The position numbers and the translations under genes were made by a program. From assembly GCA_024401305.1 (NCBI GenBank), contig JAKSLI010000038.1, positions 1 through 32,917 of the forward strand: a DNA stretch of 32,917 nucleotides, in the 5' to 3' direction. The stretch comes from Bacteroidaceae bacterium (GTDB lineage Bacteria; Bacteroidota; Bacteroidia; Bacteroidales; Bacteroidaceae). Below the pieces are notes generated by a model, which saw only the letters and a list, made by a program, of their open reading frames with translations, ran no database searches and was not told where the DNA came from. The stretch's first letter is position 1. Every line of letters starts with the position of its first letter. Positions 3-23,273 of this stretch are shown here, piece by piece.

Positions 3-1691
3 CCTTTCGACGGCCGAGCTTCCATCGACAACGCTTGCGTCTGCTACGCTGCGCTGCAACAACTGACGGCCTCCCCCAACCCCTCCACAGGGAGGGGGGA
101 TACCATCCGGACGGCTACACTCCCCCTTGTGGGGGAGTCGGAGGGGGTCAGTGCTTTTGCGCAGCTCGAACCCGTTGCCATGCGTATGGAGGTCAAGGAA
201 GGCAAGCGCGGACTCACCCTCATCAACGACACCTACAATTCCGACATTGTCTCTCTTGACATCGCCCTCGCCTTCATGTCTCGCCGCAAGGACGCGGAAG
301 AGCGCAAGAAGGTGCTCATTCTCAGCGACATACTCCAGACAGGCATTGAACCGGAAGAACTTTACACAGAAGTTTCCCGACTCGCAAAGATTCGCGGCAT
401 AGACTATTTCATCGGCGTTGGCGAACAGATTTCCGAGCATCAGGACCTCATCGACATTCCGGAGAAGCACTTCTTCCTGACCACAGACGAACTCCTCAAG
501 GACCCTCTCCAACTCCACTCCGACTCCATCGTCCTCATCAAGGGTGCTCGCAGCTACCATTTCGACCGCATAACGGATGCTCTTGAGCTGAAAGTCCACG
601 AGACAATCCTCGAAGTCAACCTCAACGCACTCGTTGACAACCTCAACTTCTACCGCTCCCACATGTCCGAGCAGACGAAGCTCGTTGCCATGGTCAAGGC
701 TGACGCTTACGGTGCCGGTGCTGTCGAGGTGGCAAAGGTTCTGCAGGACCATCAGATAGACTATCTCGCCGTTGCCGTTGCCGACGAAGGCGTGGAACTT
801 CGCAAGGCTGGCATCAAGGCTCCTATCATGATAATGAACCCAGAGATGACGGCTTTCAAGACCATGTTCGACTACAAGCTCGAGCCAGAGGTCTATAACT
901 TCCGTCTTCTGGGCGCACTCATCAAAGCAGCTCAGCAGCAGGGAGTTACCGATTATCCAGTACACATCAAGCTCGACACCGGCATGCATCGTCTCGGTTT
1001 CAATCCAATGACCGAAATCGAACAGCTCGTGGAGATATTGAAATCGCAGAAAGCTATCACACCTCGCTCCGTATTCTCTCATTTCGTAGGTGCTGACGAA
1101 GACCGCTTCGACGATTTCTCAGCCTCTCAGTTCAGCAAGTTCGAGCACGGCAGCAACATTCTCCAGAGTGCCTTCTCGCATAAGATCCTTCGCCACATCG
1201 ACAACTCCGCAGGCATCCTCCATTTCCATGACCGCCAGATGGACATGTGCCGACTTGGCATCGGACTCTACGGCGTGAACAATCGCGACAATTCCATCAT
1301 AAACAATGTCTCTACGCTCAAGACCACAATCCTCCAGATTCGTGATGTCTGCAAGGAAGACACCGTAGGCTACAGCAAGCGCGGCGTTCTGGAAAGAGAT
1401 TCCCGCATAGCAGCCATCCCTATCGGTTATGCCGACGGACTCAACCGTCACCTCGGTCGCGGCAACTGCTACTGCCTCGTCAACGGCAAGAAAGCACCAT
1501 ACGTAGGCAACATCTGCATGGACGTAGCGATGATTGATGTCACCGACATCGACTGTCAGGAAGGCGACAGCGTGGAAATCTTCGGAGCAAACCTCCCTGT
1601 CACAGTCCTCTCCGACGCCCTCGACACCATTCCTTACGAGGTGCTCACATCCATCTCCAGCCGCGTAAAGAAGGTTTACGTGCAGGAGTAA
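3..1691 (+). CDS. murF-alr: Bifunctional MurF ligase / alanine racemase, 5' end cut off by the window
   Basis: Cytoplasmic peptidoglycan enzyme. The MurF half adds D-Ala-D-Ala to UDP-MurNAc-tripeptide using ATP; the racemase half makes D-Ala from L-Ala with PLP. This fusion is established in Bacteroidota. The frame is open from base 3 with no stop. The MurF C-terminal domain shows the family segments LEPVAMRMEVKEG and LINDTYNSD (about bases 165-255). The racemase half begins near base 600. Its PLP lysine lies in MVKADAYGAG (codon 696-698), its catalytic tyrosine in IGYADG (codon 1428-1430), and VGNICMDVAMIDVTD follows. A GC-rich palindrome (69-149) is inserted in frame between CYAALQQL and AFAQLEPVAM, adding about 27 residues absent from ordinary MurF. 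A GTG at 129 could be mistaken for a start but lies inside this insertion. A strong terminator follows at 1799. Most N-terminal MurF sequence, including the ATP site, is outside the window. Confidence 0.93.
   Translation, partial: PFDGRASIDNACVCYAALQQLTASPNPSTGRGDTIRTATLPLVGESEGVSAFAQLEPVAMRMEVKEGKRGLTLINDTYNSDIVSLDIALAFMSRRKDAEERKKVLILSDILQTGIEPEELYTEVSRLAKIRGIDYFIGVGEQISEHQDLIDIPEKHFFLTTDELLKDPLQLHSDSIVLIKGARSYHFDRITDALELKVHETILEVNLNALVDNLNFYRSHMSEQTKLVAMVKADAYGAGAVEVAKVLQDHQIDYLAVAVADEGVELRKAGIKAPIMIMNPEMTAFKTMFDYKLEPEVYNFRLLGALIKAAQQQGVTDYPVHIKLDTGMHRLGFNPMTEIEQLVEILKSQKAITPRSVFSHFVGADEDRFDDFSASQFSKFEHGSNILQSAFSHKILRHIDNSAGILHFHDRQMDMCRLGIGLYGVNNRDNSIINNVSTLKTTILQIRDVCKEDTVGYSKRGVLERDSRIAAIPIGYADGLNRHLGRGNCYCLVNGKKAPYVGNICMDVAMIDVTDIDCQEGDSVEIFGANLPVTVLSDALDTIPYEVLTSISSRVKKVYVQE
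69..149. repeat. Full-length palindromic element, in-frame copy inside murF (copy E1)
   Basis: The 81 bp contain two GC-rich hairpins: CCCCTCC-ACA-GGGAGGGG at about 81-98, and ACTCCCCC-TTGT-GGGGGAGT at about 119-138. They flank the near-palindromic core CCATCCGGACGG (103-114). Outer tails are C-rich on the left and end GGAGGGGGTC on the right. The core and both hairpins match the copy at 22152-22232. The length is a multiple of three and carries no stop in the murF frame. The core is read here in a different codon phase from the other full copy, so the element is open in at least two frames. Both boundaries are inferred by alignment with the second copy, to within a few bases. Confidence 0.85.
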
Positions 1692-15116: not shown

Positions 15117-15920
15117 TCAATCCCTCATTATAGACTCCGACACTTTCTGATATATTTCCTTTGTCATCGCATCCGAAATCAGCGAGATATGCTCGTTTAC
15201 CACGGAGAGATCCTTGCGAACAGCGGGACCTGTCTGCGCCTGTTGCGGTGGCAGATGGAAGAGTTTGTCGGTGACTTCCTTCAGCAGCGGTAGCATTACG
15301 GTATAGTCGAGACCGATGGTGTGGAGCTGTTCATCGGCAAGGGTCACCATGTGATTCGTGAAATTGCTTGAGAACACGGCTGCTATGTGCAGCACCTTTC
15401 GCTCGGCAGAAGAGAGTTCCTTTACATTTACGAAAACCTTCTCGGCAAGTTCCTTCAGCACGAGCATTGTCTCCGCGTTGCTTGCTTCAAGGAATATTGG
15501 TATCTCGCTGTATTCCAGAGCCTTCGTCTTGCTGAATGTCTGCATAGGATAGAACACGCCATGATTGCAGAAATGGCTTTCCAGAAGACTCATCGGCTTC
15601 GTGCCTGCCGTATGAACCACGATGGCATGCTGCGCCTCATCACCGAGTCTTTCCTTCAGTCTTGCTGCAACCTCGCCAATGACATCGTCCTTTACACATA
15701 TAATATATATTATAGGTTTCAATAGGTTCAATGGTTTCAATGAAACTTCTGAAACCTCTGAAACTTCTGAAACCCATGAAACTTCTGAAACCTCTGAAAC
15801 CCCTGAAACCTCCGCATTCAATGTGCGACTGTCCAAGAGATCGCATTCCAAGCCTTTTTCCGTGAAGGCTTTATGCAGGTGAGTGCCAACGTTTCCGCGG
15901 CCTATAATGGTAATTCTCAT
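15117..15920 (-). CDS. Rossmann-like / DUF2520 NAD(P)-binding protein with internal 9-bp repeats
   Basis: The N-terminal Rossmann fold (MRITIIGRGNVGTHLHKAF) is followed by a DUF2520 helical domain (HTAGTKPMSLL, GVFYPMQTFSK, HIAAVFSSNFTNHM, GPAVRKDLSVV). Such proteins resemble NADP-dependent reductases of the ketopantoate or pyrroline-carboxylate type; the substrate is unknown. Met4 (15920) is preferred over Met1 (15929) because a TAATTTTG box at 15934-15941 on the minus strand leaves almost no leader. An EVS-rich stretch is inserted between LLDSRTLNA and LKPLNLLKPI, encoded by eight 9-bp repeats (15742-15813). It breaks the normal link between the second and third Rossmann strands, presumably as a surface loop. 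Confidence 0.87.
   Translation of the reverse strand: MRITIIGRGNVGTHLHKAFTEKGLECDLLDSRTLNAEVSGVSEVSEVSWVSEVSEVSEVSLKPLNLLKPIIYIICVKDDVIGEVAARLKERLGDEAQHAIVVHTAGTKPMSLLESHFCNHGVFYPMQTFSKTKALEYSEIPIFLEASNAETMLVLKELAEKVFVNVKELSSAERKVLHIAAVFSSNFTNHMVTLADEQLHTIGLDYTVMLPLLKEVTDKLFHLPPQQAQTGPAVRKDLSVVNEHISLISDAMTKEIYQKVSESIMRD
15742..15813. repeat. Eight tandem 9-bp repeats inside the DUF2520 gene
   Basis: GAAAC followed by four variable bases (TTCT, CTCT, CCAT, CCCT or CTCC) is repeated eight times without interruption. On the minus strand this encodes repeated E-V-S triplets. The 9-bp unit preserves the frame whatever the copy number. Degenerate related sequence (GGTTTCAAT) extends to about 15715. 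Confidence 0.9.
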
Positions 15921-17468: not shown

Positions 17469-17481
17469 ATTATACAAAAGT

Positions 17482-17516
17482 GCACAAAAGGGTCAGACCC
17501 CTTTGTGCAATTTTTA
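17482..17516. terminator. 29-bp palindrome (GCACAAAAGGGTC family), bidirectional terminator
   Basis: Left arm TGCACAAAAGGGTC (17482-17495), right arm GACCCCTTTGTGCA (17497-17510), one mismatch, followed by ATTTTT on the plus strand. It lies between the convergent xerC and phospholipase genes and can end both. The identical palindrome recurs at 23169-23197, so it is a dispersed repeat used as a terminator. Confidence 0.8.
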
Positions 17517-17524
17517 CGAAAACA

Positions 17525-18832
17525 TTACAACCAAGAAGCAAGGAGATGGGCAAACCATCCCTTTGTTTTCATGCCGCGTGTCTGCCATTCGTTCCACGAT
17601 TCCTTTGTAAGCAAAAAGCAGCGGGTGCGCTTGTCGTTGTCAAAAACCTGCTCCATCTGATGCGTTGTCTCACGATCCAGGATAACGACATTCTCCTCGT
17701 AGTCAAAACGAAGACTGCGGGCATCGAGGTTTGTACTGCCAACGGTGCAGAACTTTCCGTCAACGCAGATGATCTTGGTATGATGGAAACCGCCTTCGAA
17801 TATCCAAACCGTTACGCCCTGCTTCATAAGCTTGTGGGCATTGTAGAAACCACAGTCGGGAGTTAGCGGAATATCACTGTTGCGACTAAGCATAATCTCC
17901 ACCTTCACGCCACGCTTCACGGCATTCTTGAGTGCCTTCTTTATCTTGCGGTTGAGCGTAAAATAAGGATTGATGAGTTTTATGCTGTCCTTGGCGTTGT
18001 TGATAGCCGTGAGATAGAATGTGCGCATGACCTTCGGCGTTATGCCTGGCTCACGGTTTGCAATGCCGAGACGCTTCTTGAAAGCAGTAGAAGTTGTGTC
18101 CTTCTTAAGATTTCTTGTGATATAATCAGCATTTGCGCAAGCGTGGTAATACTTCGCGCCACCAATCTTTTGCTTTGCAGTCTTGTTCCAAATACGGAGG
18201 AAAATGGTCTGCAGCGTATTGACTTCCTCACCTTGTATGCGGCAGTGCATGTCGTGCCATTCGCCAACTTGCTCAGTGCCGTGGATGTAGTAGTCGGCAA
18301 CATTCATTCCACCAGTATAAGCCACGCGACCGTCAATAACAACTATCTTGCGATGGTCACGCGCCCAGACATGATTAACCCAAGGAAAAGCCAACGGATC
18401 GAACTCAAAAATCTCTATTCCTCTCTCGCGAATACTCTTCATGTGGTGATTCTTCAGCGGGCGGTTGTTTGAAGAATTGCCGAAAGAATCAAACAATGCT
18501 CTCACCTCTACTCCTTCCTTTGCCTTCTCTGCAAGCAAGTCGAAGAGACTGTTTGCTATGGAATCGTTGCGGAAGTTGAAGTACTCCAAATGCACGGATT
18601 CCTTGGCATTTCGGATAGCCTTGAACATATCGTCAAACTTCTCCTGACCGTTCAAGAGAAGAACAACGCTGTTGTTATCCGAAAAGCTCACGCCCTCCTT
18701 CTCCAGAGCTTGCTGGATAACCTCCCCTTGCCCCTCCACAGGAAGGGGAAGTTCATCTCCGAATCCCTCAGTTGGAATAATAAAAAACAAGAGAAGGAGA
18801 ATTATTTTGAATATTGACTTTGACATTAACAT
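17525..18832 (-). CDS. Phospholipase D-family protein, cardiolipin synthase-like
   Basis: About 435 aa from the ATG at 18832. Two HKD catalytic motifs are present: DHRKIVVIDGR (His160) with GGMN, and HHTKIICVDGK (His351) with GSTNLDARS. This is the arrangement of bacterial cardiolipin synthases, which join two phosphatidylglycerols at the membrane. The N-terminal hydrophobic stretch SIFKIILLLLFFII is a signal peptide or membrane anchor. The frame continues upstream to an ATG at 18874, but that region holds a motif shared with 16051-16076, so the shorter start is preferred. Near the N-terminus a half palindromic element (18719-18750) encodes LPLPVEGQGE in frame. It lies downstream of tsaD, probably co-transcribed, separated by another half element. 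Exact substrate unproven. Confidence 0.88.
   Translation of the reverse strand: MLMSKSIFKIILLLLFFIIPTEGFGDELPLPVEGQGEVIQQALEKEGVSFSDNNSVVLLLNGQEKFDDMFKAIRNAKESVHLEYFNFRNDSIANSLFDLLAEKAKEGVEVRALFDSFGNSSNNRPLKNHHMKSIRERGIEIFEFDPLAFPWVNHVWARDHRKIVVIDGRVAYTGGMNVADYYIHGTEQVGEWHDMHCRIQGEEVNTLQTIFLRIWNKTAKQKIGGAKYYHACANADYITRNLKKDTTSTAFKKRLGIANREPGITPKVMRTFYLTAINNAKDSIKLINPYFTLNRKIKKALKNAVKRGVKVEIMLSRNSDIPLTPDCGFYNAHKLMKQGVTVWIFEGGFHHTKIICVDGKFCTVGSTNLDARSLRFDYEENVVILDRETTHQMEQVFDNDKRTRCFLLTKESWNEWQTRGMKTKGWFAHLLASWL
18719..18750. repeat. Half palindromic element inside the phospholipase gene (copy E4)
   Basis: Tail AACCTCCCCTTG is followed by the hairpin CCCCTCC-ACA-GGAAGGGG, the same tail-plus-hairpin unit as one half of the element at 22152-22232. 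It encodes LPLPVEGQGEV on the minus strand and leaves the frame intact. Confidence 0.75.
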
Positions 18833-18891
18833 TGACTTTTGACGACTCGGAAATCTTCGCCCTGCATTCCTCATCCACTCAGTTTGTAATT

Positions 18892-20311: not shown

Positions 20312-21241
20312 ATGGTAAATTATAGAAAGATTGGAGGACACCTGGCTGCGTGTGGAGCTTATTCCATTTTCGGATTCAACATCATACTCACCAAAGATCT
20401 CACAAACTCACATATCTTCACACCGCTCTCGCTCTTCACTCTCAGAGCACTTGGAGCAGGATTGCTTTTCTGGACACTATCTCTTTTCACAAAAAAGGAA
20501 ACCGTTGACCGCAAGGACTTTATACAGATTTTCCTCGCAAGCCTTCTCGGCTATTTCGGAACACAGATAACATTCCTCATCGGCATAAACTACACTACCC
20601 CACTCGACTGCTCCATCATCTCGACTCTCGGTCCGGTGTTCACGATGCTCGTGGCAGCTGTCGTCTTGAAAGAGCCTATTACGACAAAGAAAGCAGGTGG
20701 CGTTCTGCTGAGTTTGGCTGGCATCATCCTGCTTATCATGAGTAGTACGACAGCCGTTGCCGATCCAACGAGAGTGACCACTCCTGGAGGAATTATCCTA
20801 TTGGTGCTCAACTGCTTATGCTTCGCAGCATATCTTGGCATCTTCCGCCCGATAATCCAGAAATATTCCGTTGTGACATTCATGAAGTGGATATTCCTCT
20901 TCTCGTTTGTCTTGGCAGCACCGTTCTCTGCAGGCGATTTGTTTGCCGTAGATTACGCAGCAGTACCACTGGGATGTTACCTTGACCTTGGCTACCTAGT
21001 GCTCTTCGCAACCTTCATTTCCTACTTCCTCATACCTGTAGGTCAGAAGGAATTGCGTCCAACATTGGTCAGCCTCTACTCATACGTTCAGCCAATAATA
21101 GCCTCTGCATTAGGCATTTATCTTGGCATGGACCGCATCACACTCACCAAGACACTCGCACTCATAGCAGTCATTTCGGGTGTCGTTATGGTAAATAAAA
21201 GTCCCCAAAGACCCCCTAGCCCCCCAAGGGGGAACTCTTAA
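20312..21241 (+). CDS. EamA/DMT-family membrane transporter
   Basis: The 309-aa protein has about ten transmembrane helices in two EamA repeats (first about residues 8-143, second about 160-297). Characteristic stretches are TPLDCSIISTLGPVFTMLVAAVVLKEP in the first repeat and LVSLYSYVQPIIASALGIYLGMD in the second. The family exports amino acids, drugs or metabolites across the inner membrane; the substrate cannot be deduced. The final residues (SPQRPPSPPRGNS) are encoded by a half palindromic element that supplied a new C-terminus and stop, so the native tail is probably altered. Confidence 0.9.
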   Translation: MVNYRKIGGHLAACGAYSIFGFNIILTKDLTNSHIFTPLSLFTLRALGAGLLFWTLSLFTKKETVDRKDFIQIFLASLLGYFGTQITFLIGINYTTPLDCSIISTLGPVFTMLVAAVVLKEPITTKKAGGVLLSLAGIILLIMSSTTAVADPTRVTTPGGIILLVLNCLCFAAYLGIFRPIIQKYSVVTFMKWIFLFSFVLAAPFSAGDLFAVDYAAVPLGCYLDLGYLVLFATFISYFLIPVGQKELRPTLVSLYSYVQPIIASALGIYLGMDRITLTKTLALIAVISGVVMVNKSPQRPPSPPRGNS

Positions 21242-21480
21242 TAGCATTATTCGCTTCAAACACTTATTATAACAAACATTTATCAAGAATTAGTGAATTA
21301 GAGATTTTTTTTATATATCAGGTTCTCTTATTCGCTTGAATTCAAAAGAATTATAAGAACAGAGCAAAAAAGAAAATTCTCTAATTCACTAATTCTTGAT
21401 TATAAAAAAAATACTATCACTTACTAATATTCAATCCCCATAATCAATTAAAAGTTCCCCCTCGGGGGGCTAGGGGGTCT
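21210..21480. repeat. Nested inverted-repeat block bounded by half palindromic elements (E6, E7)
   Basis: Outer arms: GACCCCCTAG then the hairpin CCCCCCAAGGGGGAACT (21210-21238), and its near-exact inverse at 21450-21480 containing GGGGGGCTAGGGGGTCTC. Inner arms: ATCAAGAATTAGTGAATTAG (about 21281-21300), inverse at about 21381-21400. The left outer arm overlaps the end of the transporter gene; the right outer arm ends just before the ATG at 21486. The whole block resembles a small non-autonomous element with layered terminal repeats. No ORF lies inside. Confidence 0.7.
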
Positions 21481-21485
21481 CAGAT

Positions 21486-23144
21486 ATGATCAAAGAACTT
21501 CAACTCCGCATACTTCCACAGATAGCAGGCGACAGCAATCGTCTTCGCGACTATCTCTCTGACGAATACGCAATCAGAAAGCCAAGCATCAAGGGCGTTC
21601 GAATATTGAAACGCTCCATCGATGCCCGCCAAAGACAGGTGTTCGTCAATTTGAAAGTGCGTATCTATATTAATGAAGAGCCAACGGACGATGAATATAT
21701 CAGCATAGACTACAAGCCAGTTTCTGGCAAGCGTCAGGCTGTTGTCGTAGGCGCTGGTCCTGCGGGACTTTTCGCAGCTCTTCGTCTCATTGAGCATGAC
21801 ATAAAGCCTATCGTCATTGAACGAGGCAAGAATGTTCGTGACCGCAAGAAGGACATCGCAAACATCTCTCGCGAAGGTTATGTTGACCCGGAAAGCAACT
21901 ATTCCTTTGGCGAAGGTGGTGCCGGTGCCTATAGCGATGGAAAGCTCTACACTCGCTCAAAGAAGCGCGGCTCGGTGGATAGAATTCTCAACATTTTCTG
22001 TCAGCATGGCGCATCTACTGCCATTCTCGCGGACGCTCATCCGCATATCGGCACTGACCGATTGCCTAGAGTGATCGAGAACATGCGCAACCAGATTATC
22101 CGTTGTGGCGGCGAGGTGCATTTCCAAACGAAGATGATTTCGCTCATCACCGACCCCCTCCTACTCCCCCACAAGGGGGAGGGCTACCATCCGGATGGCA
22201 ACCCCTCCCCTGTGGGGAGGTCGGGAGGGGTCAGAGGCATCATCGCCAAAGACCTCACAACTGGCGAAGAGCGTGAGATACTCGGTCCTGTTATCCTTGC
22301 CACTGGTCATTCTGCGCGTGATGTCTATCGTTATCTGAACGCGGCAAACATTCTCATTGAACCGAAATCGCTTGCTGTTGGTGTGAGACTTGAACACCCT
22401 TCTCATCTCATCGACCAGATTCAATATCACTCTCGCGATGGTCGCGGAAAGTATCTCCCTGCTGCGGAATACAGCTTCGTCACACAGGTTGAAGGTCGTG
22501 GCGTGTATAGTTTCTGCATGTGCCCAGGCGGTTTCGTGGTACCAGCAGCCAGCGGTCCTGAGCAGTTGGTTGTCAATGGTATGAGTCCATCGTCCCGTGG
22601 TGGCAAATGGAGCAATAGCGGAATGGTTGTTGAAGTCACTCCAGAGTCGGTTGCGTCTTCCCTCCCTCACAGGGAGGGTCAGGGTGGGTCTCCACTAATC
22701 ATGCTCGAATACCAAGAAGAGCTTGAACGCCTCTGCTATAATAATAAAGGTGAGAAACTTGCCGCTCCATCACAGCGAATGGCAGATTTCGTGAACAACC
22801 GCATCTCAACAGACCTTCCAGCCTCTTCATATTCTCCTGGCGTCATCTCTTCCCCACTCCATTTCTGGATGCCGAAGGATATTCGCACTCGTCTGCAGCA
22901 GGGTTTCAAGGATTTCGGAAAGAAGAGCCACGGTTTCCTCACAAACGAAGCAATCCTTATTGCCATGGAAACCCGCACATCAGCGCCTGTTCGCATCGTT
23001 CGTGACAACGAAACTCTTCAGCATGTTGAAGTCAGCGGACTTTATCCAGCAGGTGAAGGTGCCGGTTATGCTGGCGGAATCGTATCGGCTGCCATCGATG
23101 GCGAACGCTGTGCAGATGCTTTGGCAGAGTTATTGGGTGAATAA
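21486..23144 (+). CDS. FAD-dependent dehydrogenase-like protein with two in-frame repeat insertions
   Basis: The 552-aa flavoprotein is of the large NAD(FAD)-utilising dehydrogenase type (COG2509-like). A short N-terminal domain precedes the FAD-binding Rossmann motif AVVVGAGPAGLFAALRLIE (about residues 85-102), then YSFGEGGAGAYSDGKLYTR, ILATGHSARDVY, and the C-terminal FAD segment VSGLYPAGEGAGYAGGIVSAAIDG. The reaction is not known. Residues 223-249 (DPLLLPHKGEG onward) and about 392-402 (SLPHREGQGGS) are encoded by palindromic elements and interrupt normal sequence (TKMISLIT to GIIAKDLTTGEE). Without them the length, about 513 aa, would be typical. It sits downstream of the DMT gene beyond the nested repeat, with no clear promoter of its own. 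Confidence 0.9.
   Translation: MIKELQLRILPQIAGDSNRLRDYLSDEYAIRKPSIKGVRILKRSIDARQRQVFVNLKVRIYINEEPTDDEYISIDYKPVSGKRQAVVVGAGPAGLFAALRLIEHDIKPIVIERGKNVRDRKKDIANISREGYVDPESNYSFGEGGAGAYSDGKLYTRSKKRGSVDRILNIFCQHGASTAILADAHPHIGTDRLPRVIENMRNQIIRCGGEVHFQTKMISLITDPLLLPHKGEGYHPDGNPSPVGRSGGVRGIIAKDLTTGEEREILGPVILATGHSARDVYRYLNAANILIEPKSLAVGVRLEHPSHLIDQIQYHSRDGRGKYLPAAEYSFVTQVEGRGVYSFCMCPGGFVVPAASGPEQLVVNGMSPSSRGGKWSNSGMVVEVTPESVASSLPHREGQGGSPLIMLEYQEELERLCYNNKGEKLAAPSQRMADFVNNRISTDLPASSYSPGVISSPLHFWMPKDIRTRLQQGFKDFGKKSHGFLTNEAILIAMETRTSAPVRIVRDNETLQHVEVSGLYPAGEGAGYAGGIVSAAIDGERCADALAELLGE
22152..22232. repeat. Full-length palindromic element, in frame inside the FAD protein gene (copy E2)
   Basis: 81 bp. 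Outer tail GACCCCCTCC, hairpin CTCCCCC-ACAA-GGGGGAG, perfect palindromic core CCATCCGGATGG (22187-22198), hairpin CCTCCC-CTGT-GGGGAGG, and outer tail GGGAGGGGTC, which is the inverse of the first tail. Exactly 27 codons without a stop. It corresponds end to end to the copy at 69-149. Confidence 0.9.
22660..22690. repeat. Half palindromic element, in frame inside the FAD protein gene (copy E3)
   Basis: Hairpin CCCTCCCT-CA-CAGGGAGGG followed by the tail TCAGGGTGGGTC, equivalent to the right half of the copy at 22152-22232. It encodes SLPHREGQGGS without disturbing the frame. Two insertions in one gene are unusual. Confidence 0.78.
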
Positions 23145-23153
23145 ACACAAATT

Positions 23154-23197
23154 TGCACAAAAGGGTCATGCACAAAAGGGTCAGACCCCTTTGTGCA
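23154..23197. repeat. GCACAAAAGGGTC palindrome with a duplicated left arm
   Basis: TGCACAAAAGGGTCA (23154-23168) is directly followed by a full palindrome (left arm TGCACAAAAGGGTC from 23169, right arm GACCCCTTTGTGCA to 23197), the same palindrome as at 17482-17510. It lies just after the FAD protein stop codon and can form a terminator-like hairpin followed by AAAA. Confidence 0.8.
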
Positions 23198-23273
23198 AAA
23201 ATATCGCGGTTGTACTCGCCCCGCATCATGATTTTTGCGTTAACAATCGTTAATAACGGTTAAAAATATGCGC

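Follow-up and report, generated by a model that had tools for sequence, protein, structure and literature searches.

The murF-alr gene at the start of a Bacteroidaceae contig carries an in-frame palindromic insert that is very probably one copy of a lineage-specific, short, non-autonomous palindromic family, whose tolerated in-frame copies in genes would persist as translated peptide. The stretch of DNA that we analyzed, hereafter the window, comprises positions 1-32,917 of the forward strand of contig JAKSLI010000038.1 (Bacteroidaceae bacterium, GCA_024401305.1). The element (69..149, + strand, 81 bp, subfamily A) encodes the peptide ASPNPSTGRGDTIRTATLPLVGESEGV and is built from a CCATCCGG-type centre between two inverted hairpin units of ~32 nt, the first a diverged copy (68..99, +; 30.6 bits with the unit model) and the second inverted and near the consensus (118..149, -; 50.8 bits). 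A prior sequence-only reading had described an 81-bp double-hairpin element that has no stop codon and keeps the frame, and we confirm this, as the element lies inside a murF-alr ORF (3..1691, +; 562 aa seen) that stays open through it. Directly 3' of the insert, Pfam places Mur_ligase_C (PF02875; 180..551, +; residues 60-183), followed by the alanine racemase N and C domains (615..1679, +; residues 205-426 and 436-559). Since the window begins where the contig does, the 5' half of murF, which is an essential gene, is absent from the window. The insertion site lies just before the MurF C-terminal domain, and the alignment with Escherichia coli MurF (1gg4) starts at residue 307 of that protein; as judged from these domain positions, the site fits an exposed interdomain linker.

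When compared with dinucleotide shuffles, the 69-149 sequence folds only modestly better (z -2.2, both as DNA and as RNA). Despite this modest score, it represents a real repeat family, since, counting itself, it has at least 49 DNA matches at 42 or more places in its own genome, with 40 of 83 candidates scored. Rfam returned no match above the gathering score across the whole window. A typical full copy consists of GACCCCCTCCGACTCCCCCACAAGGGGGAGGG, then a CCATCCGG-type centre, then the inverse, and matches to the unit model number at least 125 in the own genome (G000; 150 of 854 candidates scored) and at least 83 in the closest relative that we found (G060; 150 of 810 candidates scored). Each of these two genomes is represented by one metagenome-assembled genome (MAG), and the own genome is 86% complete. 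The 99 units listed among the 125 or more in the own genome merge to 80 elements, of which 18 are +- doublets, a tally that counts murF as a single because its weaker unit is outside the 99 listed; single units also occur. Base A is enriched immediately upstream of the units, with frequencies of 0.53 at -1 and 0.49 at -2 (98 flanks). Across the genus, a unit match was found in at least 34 of 299 genomes, the own genome included, with up to three candidates scored per genome, and the number of element places is 0 in the next relative (G061) and 1 in G028. No exact match of the 25-nt unit core was found in viral contigs.

To place the insert among related MurF proteins, we measured the segment that runs from PF.. 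to LEPVAMR, which spans 54 residues in the window, 34 residues in 105 other sequences, and 33 residues in one. These 107 sequences, the window counted, are not 107 independent species, with several genomes present in both source lists, and they derive from 110 that were tried on both strands, leaving out L051, L059, and L071. Judged by eye, L059 has no insert; in L071, a goat Prevotella MAG, an unrelated GA/AT-rich stretch immediately 5' of the match at 2501 breaks murF at the same linker and is out of frame as assembled. The closest relative (locus L062 of G060) is a horse-faeces MAG that is 88% identical downstream. Of the 27-residue MurF insertion that had been proposed, the insertion itself is borne out by the alignment (54 versus 33-34 residues), while the figure of 27 describes the codons of the element and not the net change: the gain relative to the closest relative is 60 nt, or 20 residues, because about 12 native residues are gone, with 32 window residues occupying the place of the 12 native residues GLPEQTIIERMK in L062. 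Element-free sites, for which the same reading had suggested comparing strains, are present both here, in the 106 MurF segments of 33-34 residues, and in further genes of G060. The relatives recovered are Prevotella, Prevotellaceae, and Bacteroidaceae, mostly MAGs, in keeping with the Prevotella-type host that had been suggested.

A second murF allele occurs in the same assembly, where contig C33 terminates in the murF 5' half and carries a different in-frame insert at the same site. Since its flanks are identical to those of the window contig (C48) at 54 of 60 bases, the C33 allele probably comes from a co-binned sister strain or species. The C33 insert belongs to subfamily B, while the C48 insert belongs to subfamily A.

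The family interrupts many other genes of the own genome, including those for LpxB (three inserts), RsgA, TruA, TrmH, RecN, SufD, and a flavin adenine dinucleotide (FAD) enzyme in addition to murF. We compared fourteen host genes with their counterparts in G060, G061, G004, and G028, where these were found. Occupancy differs between the two related genomes: murF, LpxB (all three sites), MTAN, SufD, and the FAD enzyme are without the element in G060; TatD, RecN, and PLPdc are also without it there, yet have a longer or different loop; and RsgA, TrmH, TruA, M20, and NIF3 are filled in both. That both MAGs share five filled sites disfavours an assembly artefact. For the RND transporter, G060 gave only a 36%-identical paralog, which precludes a comparison. 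Third codon positions dominate the differences from G060 in 10 of 10 genes tested, and among 542 codons of murF-alr itself, 183 differ synonymously and 77 non-synonymously; by this pattern of substitution, the interrupted genes are under purifying selection, and the enzymes that they encode would presumably retain their activity.

The cleanest empty-site pair is provided by the second complete element of the window (22152..22232, +), which lies in frame in an FAD-dependent oxidoreductase ORF (PF21688; 21486..23144, +). Its net gain is 69 nt relative to the closest relative and 22-23 residues relative to four relatives, with 34 residues between the anchors in the own genome versus 11-12 in the relatives. 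The same gene holds a weak unit match (ASSLPHREGQGGSPL; 22659..22690, -; 16.5 bits); the closest relative has a similar stretch, which three other relatives lack or have in shorter form. In RsgA, the anchors are 37 residues apart in the own genome, 9 in G061, and 7 in G028. On the other hand, TruA has 20 residues between anchors in both the own genome and G061, and NIF3 has 27 residues versus 31 in G061. Since neither of these shows a net gain, single units at such sites may stand in for residues of the native loop or be partly fortuitous.

LpxB is 466 aa long in the own genome versus 367-393 aa in 25 aligned relatives; the search matched 36 of 40 genomes (own included), with matches mostly split at the inserts, and two of the elements are neighbours (C104:8046 and C104:8156-8239). 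Besides its three elements, the own LpxB (L182) has an extra 7-residue stretch near TLPAGRSTR that is missing from nearly all aligned relatives. The LpxB of G022 (L302) has an unrelated, charged 16-residue stretch at the position of insert 1, and the SufD of Prevotella G028 (L282) has its own two-hairpin insert, in frame and of different sequence. Elsewhere in the own genome, a 799-aa ORF (L187, G000:C13:10180-11868) holds four in-frame elements. At some sites the occupant differs between genomes: one and the same TrmH site is occupied by subfamily A in the own genome and by subfamily B in G060, and in G060 TruA and RsgA carry a further hairpin stretch within the older one. Different elements at the same site could reflect either recurrent targeting of loops or replacement by recombination.

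Scoring the genome-wide copies by codon phase, a check proposed with the sequence-only reading, revealed a strong in-frame bias. The input was the same 99 listed units of the own genome, merged to 80 elements. Where a strong coding signal is present on both sides and on one strand, 29 of 31 merged elements are free of stops and keep the frame, and these lie in 26 ORFs; the two exceptions are one element with stops and one with a frameshift. Against an expectation of one third, this gives p = 3e-12, although elements sharing an ORF are not independent. Under a looser rule, 77 of the 80 elements could be scored, the other 3 being at contig edges, and these divide into 36 in frame in coding sequence, 1 in the same frame with stops, 1 frameshift, and 39 mixed or intergenic. 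The left flank of the murF copy is too short for the script, so its phase was judged by hand; with murF included, the looser list holds 37 in-frame elements in 32 ORFs. As a control, we drew 2000 windows at random from these regions, elements included, which gave 1257 in frame, 724 mixed, 13 frameshift, and 6 stop calls. Since shifts and stops are this rare among random windows, the phase test itself rarely reports a shift. The codon score behind it was trained on ORFs from these regions, including ones that contain elements. The elements are also rarer in coding sequence (36 of 77) than the random windows are (1257 of 2000). In G060, 22 merged unit-model sites (27 of the 83 or more matches, at least 2 of the sites being subfamily B) gave 8 in frame, 12 mixed, 1 frameshift, and 1 stop.

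Subfamily B is asymmetric, with a directional spacer between its hairpins, and is found mainly in G060, with 30 matches there and 3 in the own genome, one of which is the C33 murF copy. Among 22 merged sites in G060 (27 of the 30 matches), 12 are in frame, 9 are mixed, and 1 is a frameshift. All eight full-length copies found by DNA (7 in G060 plus C33) are in frame, in the same orientation, and encode one peptide, with two of the eight lying in near-identical gene copies (C5 and C16). The peptide is rich in Pro, Gly, and polar residues (SPTPxLPPxGGSxxNDSA..NLSPTGGGVGGGL, in the G060 copies SPTPxLPP..NLSPTGGG-like). Of five shorter in-frame copies in G060, four use that same frame and one (C14) uses another; at the in-frame site C23:129485, the ORF opens with the peptide, which may precede the start codon. 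Among nine copies selected for their peptide, none has either of the other two forward frames open, while six have one or more open reverse frames, so the frame bias of subfamily B stems partly, but not wholly, from openness. Genes that carry full or partial copies encode, among others, MnmG, RlmN, a SpoU methylase, an M20 peptidase, an aminotransferase, a TonB receptor, a SpoIID protein, an AAA helicase, and a flippase-like protein, with one of ten having no Pfam match. A search for the peptide in 200 genus genomes gave C33 of the own genome as its only match. One possible reading, which we put forward tentatively, is that these are selfish palindromes adapted to life in proteins, with subfamily B as a mobile flexible linker selected for a harmless peptide over DNA function and able to replace other subfamilies at permissive loops.

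We considered whether the family could be a REPIN/REP element moved by a RAYT (a Y1 tyrosine transposase), with its genic copies incidental. Two inverted hairpin units or singles in many copies are what such elements look like, and matches to PF01797 above the cut-off occur in the own genome (two), G060 (two), G061 (one), and G028 (one). A unit-like hairpin precedes the ORF of the strongest of these Y1 matches (L293 on C21 of G060, 71 bits) by ~0.35 kb, and atypical flanking structures have been described for Bacteroidetes TnpA-REP subclass 2.6 (PMC6006769). However, the own-genome matches are weak (28 and 24 bits): the Y1 gene on C34 has no unit within its 3.3-kb locus, the one on C87 merely adjoins a gene holding a unit, and no RAYT gene flanked by repeats was found in the own genome (86% complete, as noted). 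G061 and G028 each have a Y1 match yet hold 0 and 1 element places, and just 17 of the 99 units contain GTAG or CGTC. Together, these findings make this explanation unlikely.

Other explanations concern murF more directly. The contig begins 68 bp upstream of the element, and C33 supplies a second murF 5' half with a different insert at the same site, as might be expected if murF were a decayed pseudogene or if two strains had been assembled into a chimera; this is very unlikely, since murF-alr has 562 open codons, intact domains, and the signature of purifying selection, both murF alleles are in frame, and similar inserts occur in other genes, some of them common to the second MAG. Inserts skipped during translation are known as byp elements, and a hairpin-forming insert in a conserved gene would suit such skipping; byp-like skipping, or splicing, would leave a normal protein. 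We regard this as extremely unlikely, since skipping would remove the need for a stop-free frame, yet 29 of 31 elements are in frame. Ordinary growth of a low-complexity linker with no mobile element could find support in the unrelated stretches at the same places in L071 murF and at LpxB site 1 of L302 (16 residues), but the other 106 measured murF segments are all 33 or 34 residues, and for murF this idea is contradicted by the insert matching a dispersed repeat at 42 or more places, which renders it hardly credible.

We therefore return to a dispersed palindromic family whose genic copies are tolerated. Most likely, a non-autonomous element of two inverted ~32-nt units, or of single units, spreads via some enzyme, and its insertions would land both in intergenic DNA and inside genes. 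Those that break the frame or do harm would be purged by selection, while stop-free, in-frame genic copies, probably at loops or linkers, would survive and be translated as extra Pro/Gly/polar peptide. In murF, the added peptide would sit just before the C-terminal domain. The elements would be mobile, and their inserts, as judged from alignment, would lie in exposed loops. No target-site duplication was visible by eye in the pair alignments, whose flanks are diverged.

The sequence-only reading had likened the element to Rickettsia palindromic elements (RPEs), and the element-free sites in relatives, the in-frame bias, the purifying selection, and about thirty host ORFs support that likeness. 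RPEs and Wolbachia palindromic elements are likewise described in frame in unrelated conserved genes, with orthologs filled at the same place and RPE inserts at solvent-exposed places (PMC2229807, PMC10969869, PMC3767692), RPEs being 105-146 nt long (PMC2229807). The Prevotella-group repeat is also in frame inside unrelated conserved genes (29 of 31 elements; 14 genes compared), but it belongs to another phylum, has a GC-rich two-hairpin unit of about 80 nt, occurs as single units too, and places different subfamilies at one site. By analogy of behaviour rather than sequence, the comparison supports an element that works like RPEs, and we do not claim RPE membership.

Likeness to other known systems is more limited. 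REPs tagged with GTAG or CGTC are described, in PMC3733652, as palindromes of 20-40 nt, present as singles and inverted dimers and mostly intergenic; R. conorii, O. terrae, and others also have copies inside genes, where dimers encode 20 to 30 residues. The family studied here shares the short palindromes, the singles and inverted dimers, and the in-gene copies, but 82 of the 99 units, taken together with 4 nt of flanking sequence, contain neither tetranucleotide, and 36 of 77 elements are in genes under the looser rule. Membership of the tagged REPs was rejected, with the tag anywhere in only 17 of 99 units. REPINs, too, have two inverted units forming a larger hairpin in many copies; a search of the own genome, 86% complete, revealed no Y1 gene with flanking units, and we do not assign the family to a REPIN/RAYT system. 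MITEs such as Correia or ERIC are, according to PMC2229807, small repeats of the non-autonomous kind, some of which form in-frame fusions with genes. The family resembles them in this and may differ from them in having no visible target duplication, its flanks being diverged. The sequence-only reading knew of no such palindromes in Prevotella, and our full-text search of open-licence literature likewise found no description of in-gene palindromes there; PMC3733652 and PMC2229807 describe them for other groups.

These findings suggest that protein-coding palindromes are not confined to the Rickettsiales and the REP-rich species in print and can be pervasive in the genes of one gut lineage of Bacteroidales. 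The related genome pair offers, for one set of genes, naturally filled and empty versions of a site, and so makes it possible to measure tolerance, insertion preference, and loop evolution. Where the inserts lie in conserved enzymes (MurF, LpxB, and RsgA), they point to candidate permissive sites, and annotation and structure work on such lineages should expect palindromic inserts in genes.

The window holds several other repeats. A separate palindrome, TGCACAAAAGGGTCAGACCCCTTTGTGCAA, occurs at 17481-17510 and 23154-23198, and its second copy is preceded by a partial tandem copy. Two members of a related short family (GACCCCCTAGCCCCCCAAGGGGGAAC), inverted relative to each other, occupy 21209-21242 and 21447-21480, with the first member overlapping the 3' end of ORF 20312-21241, and L005 has a similar stretch whose in-frame translation is DPLAPQGG. 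A unit-like hairpin at 18721-18748, 86% identical to the first element half, lies near the N-terminus of ORF 17525-18874 (-), and a nine-base, CTGAAACCT-like tandem array is found at 15731-15819.
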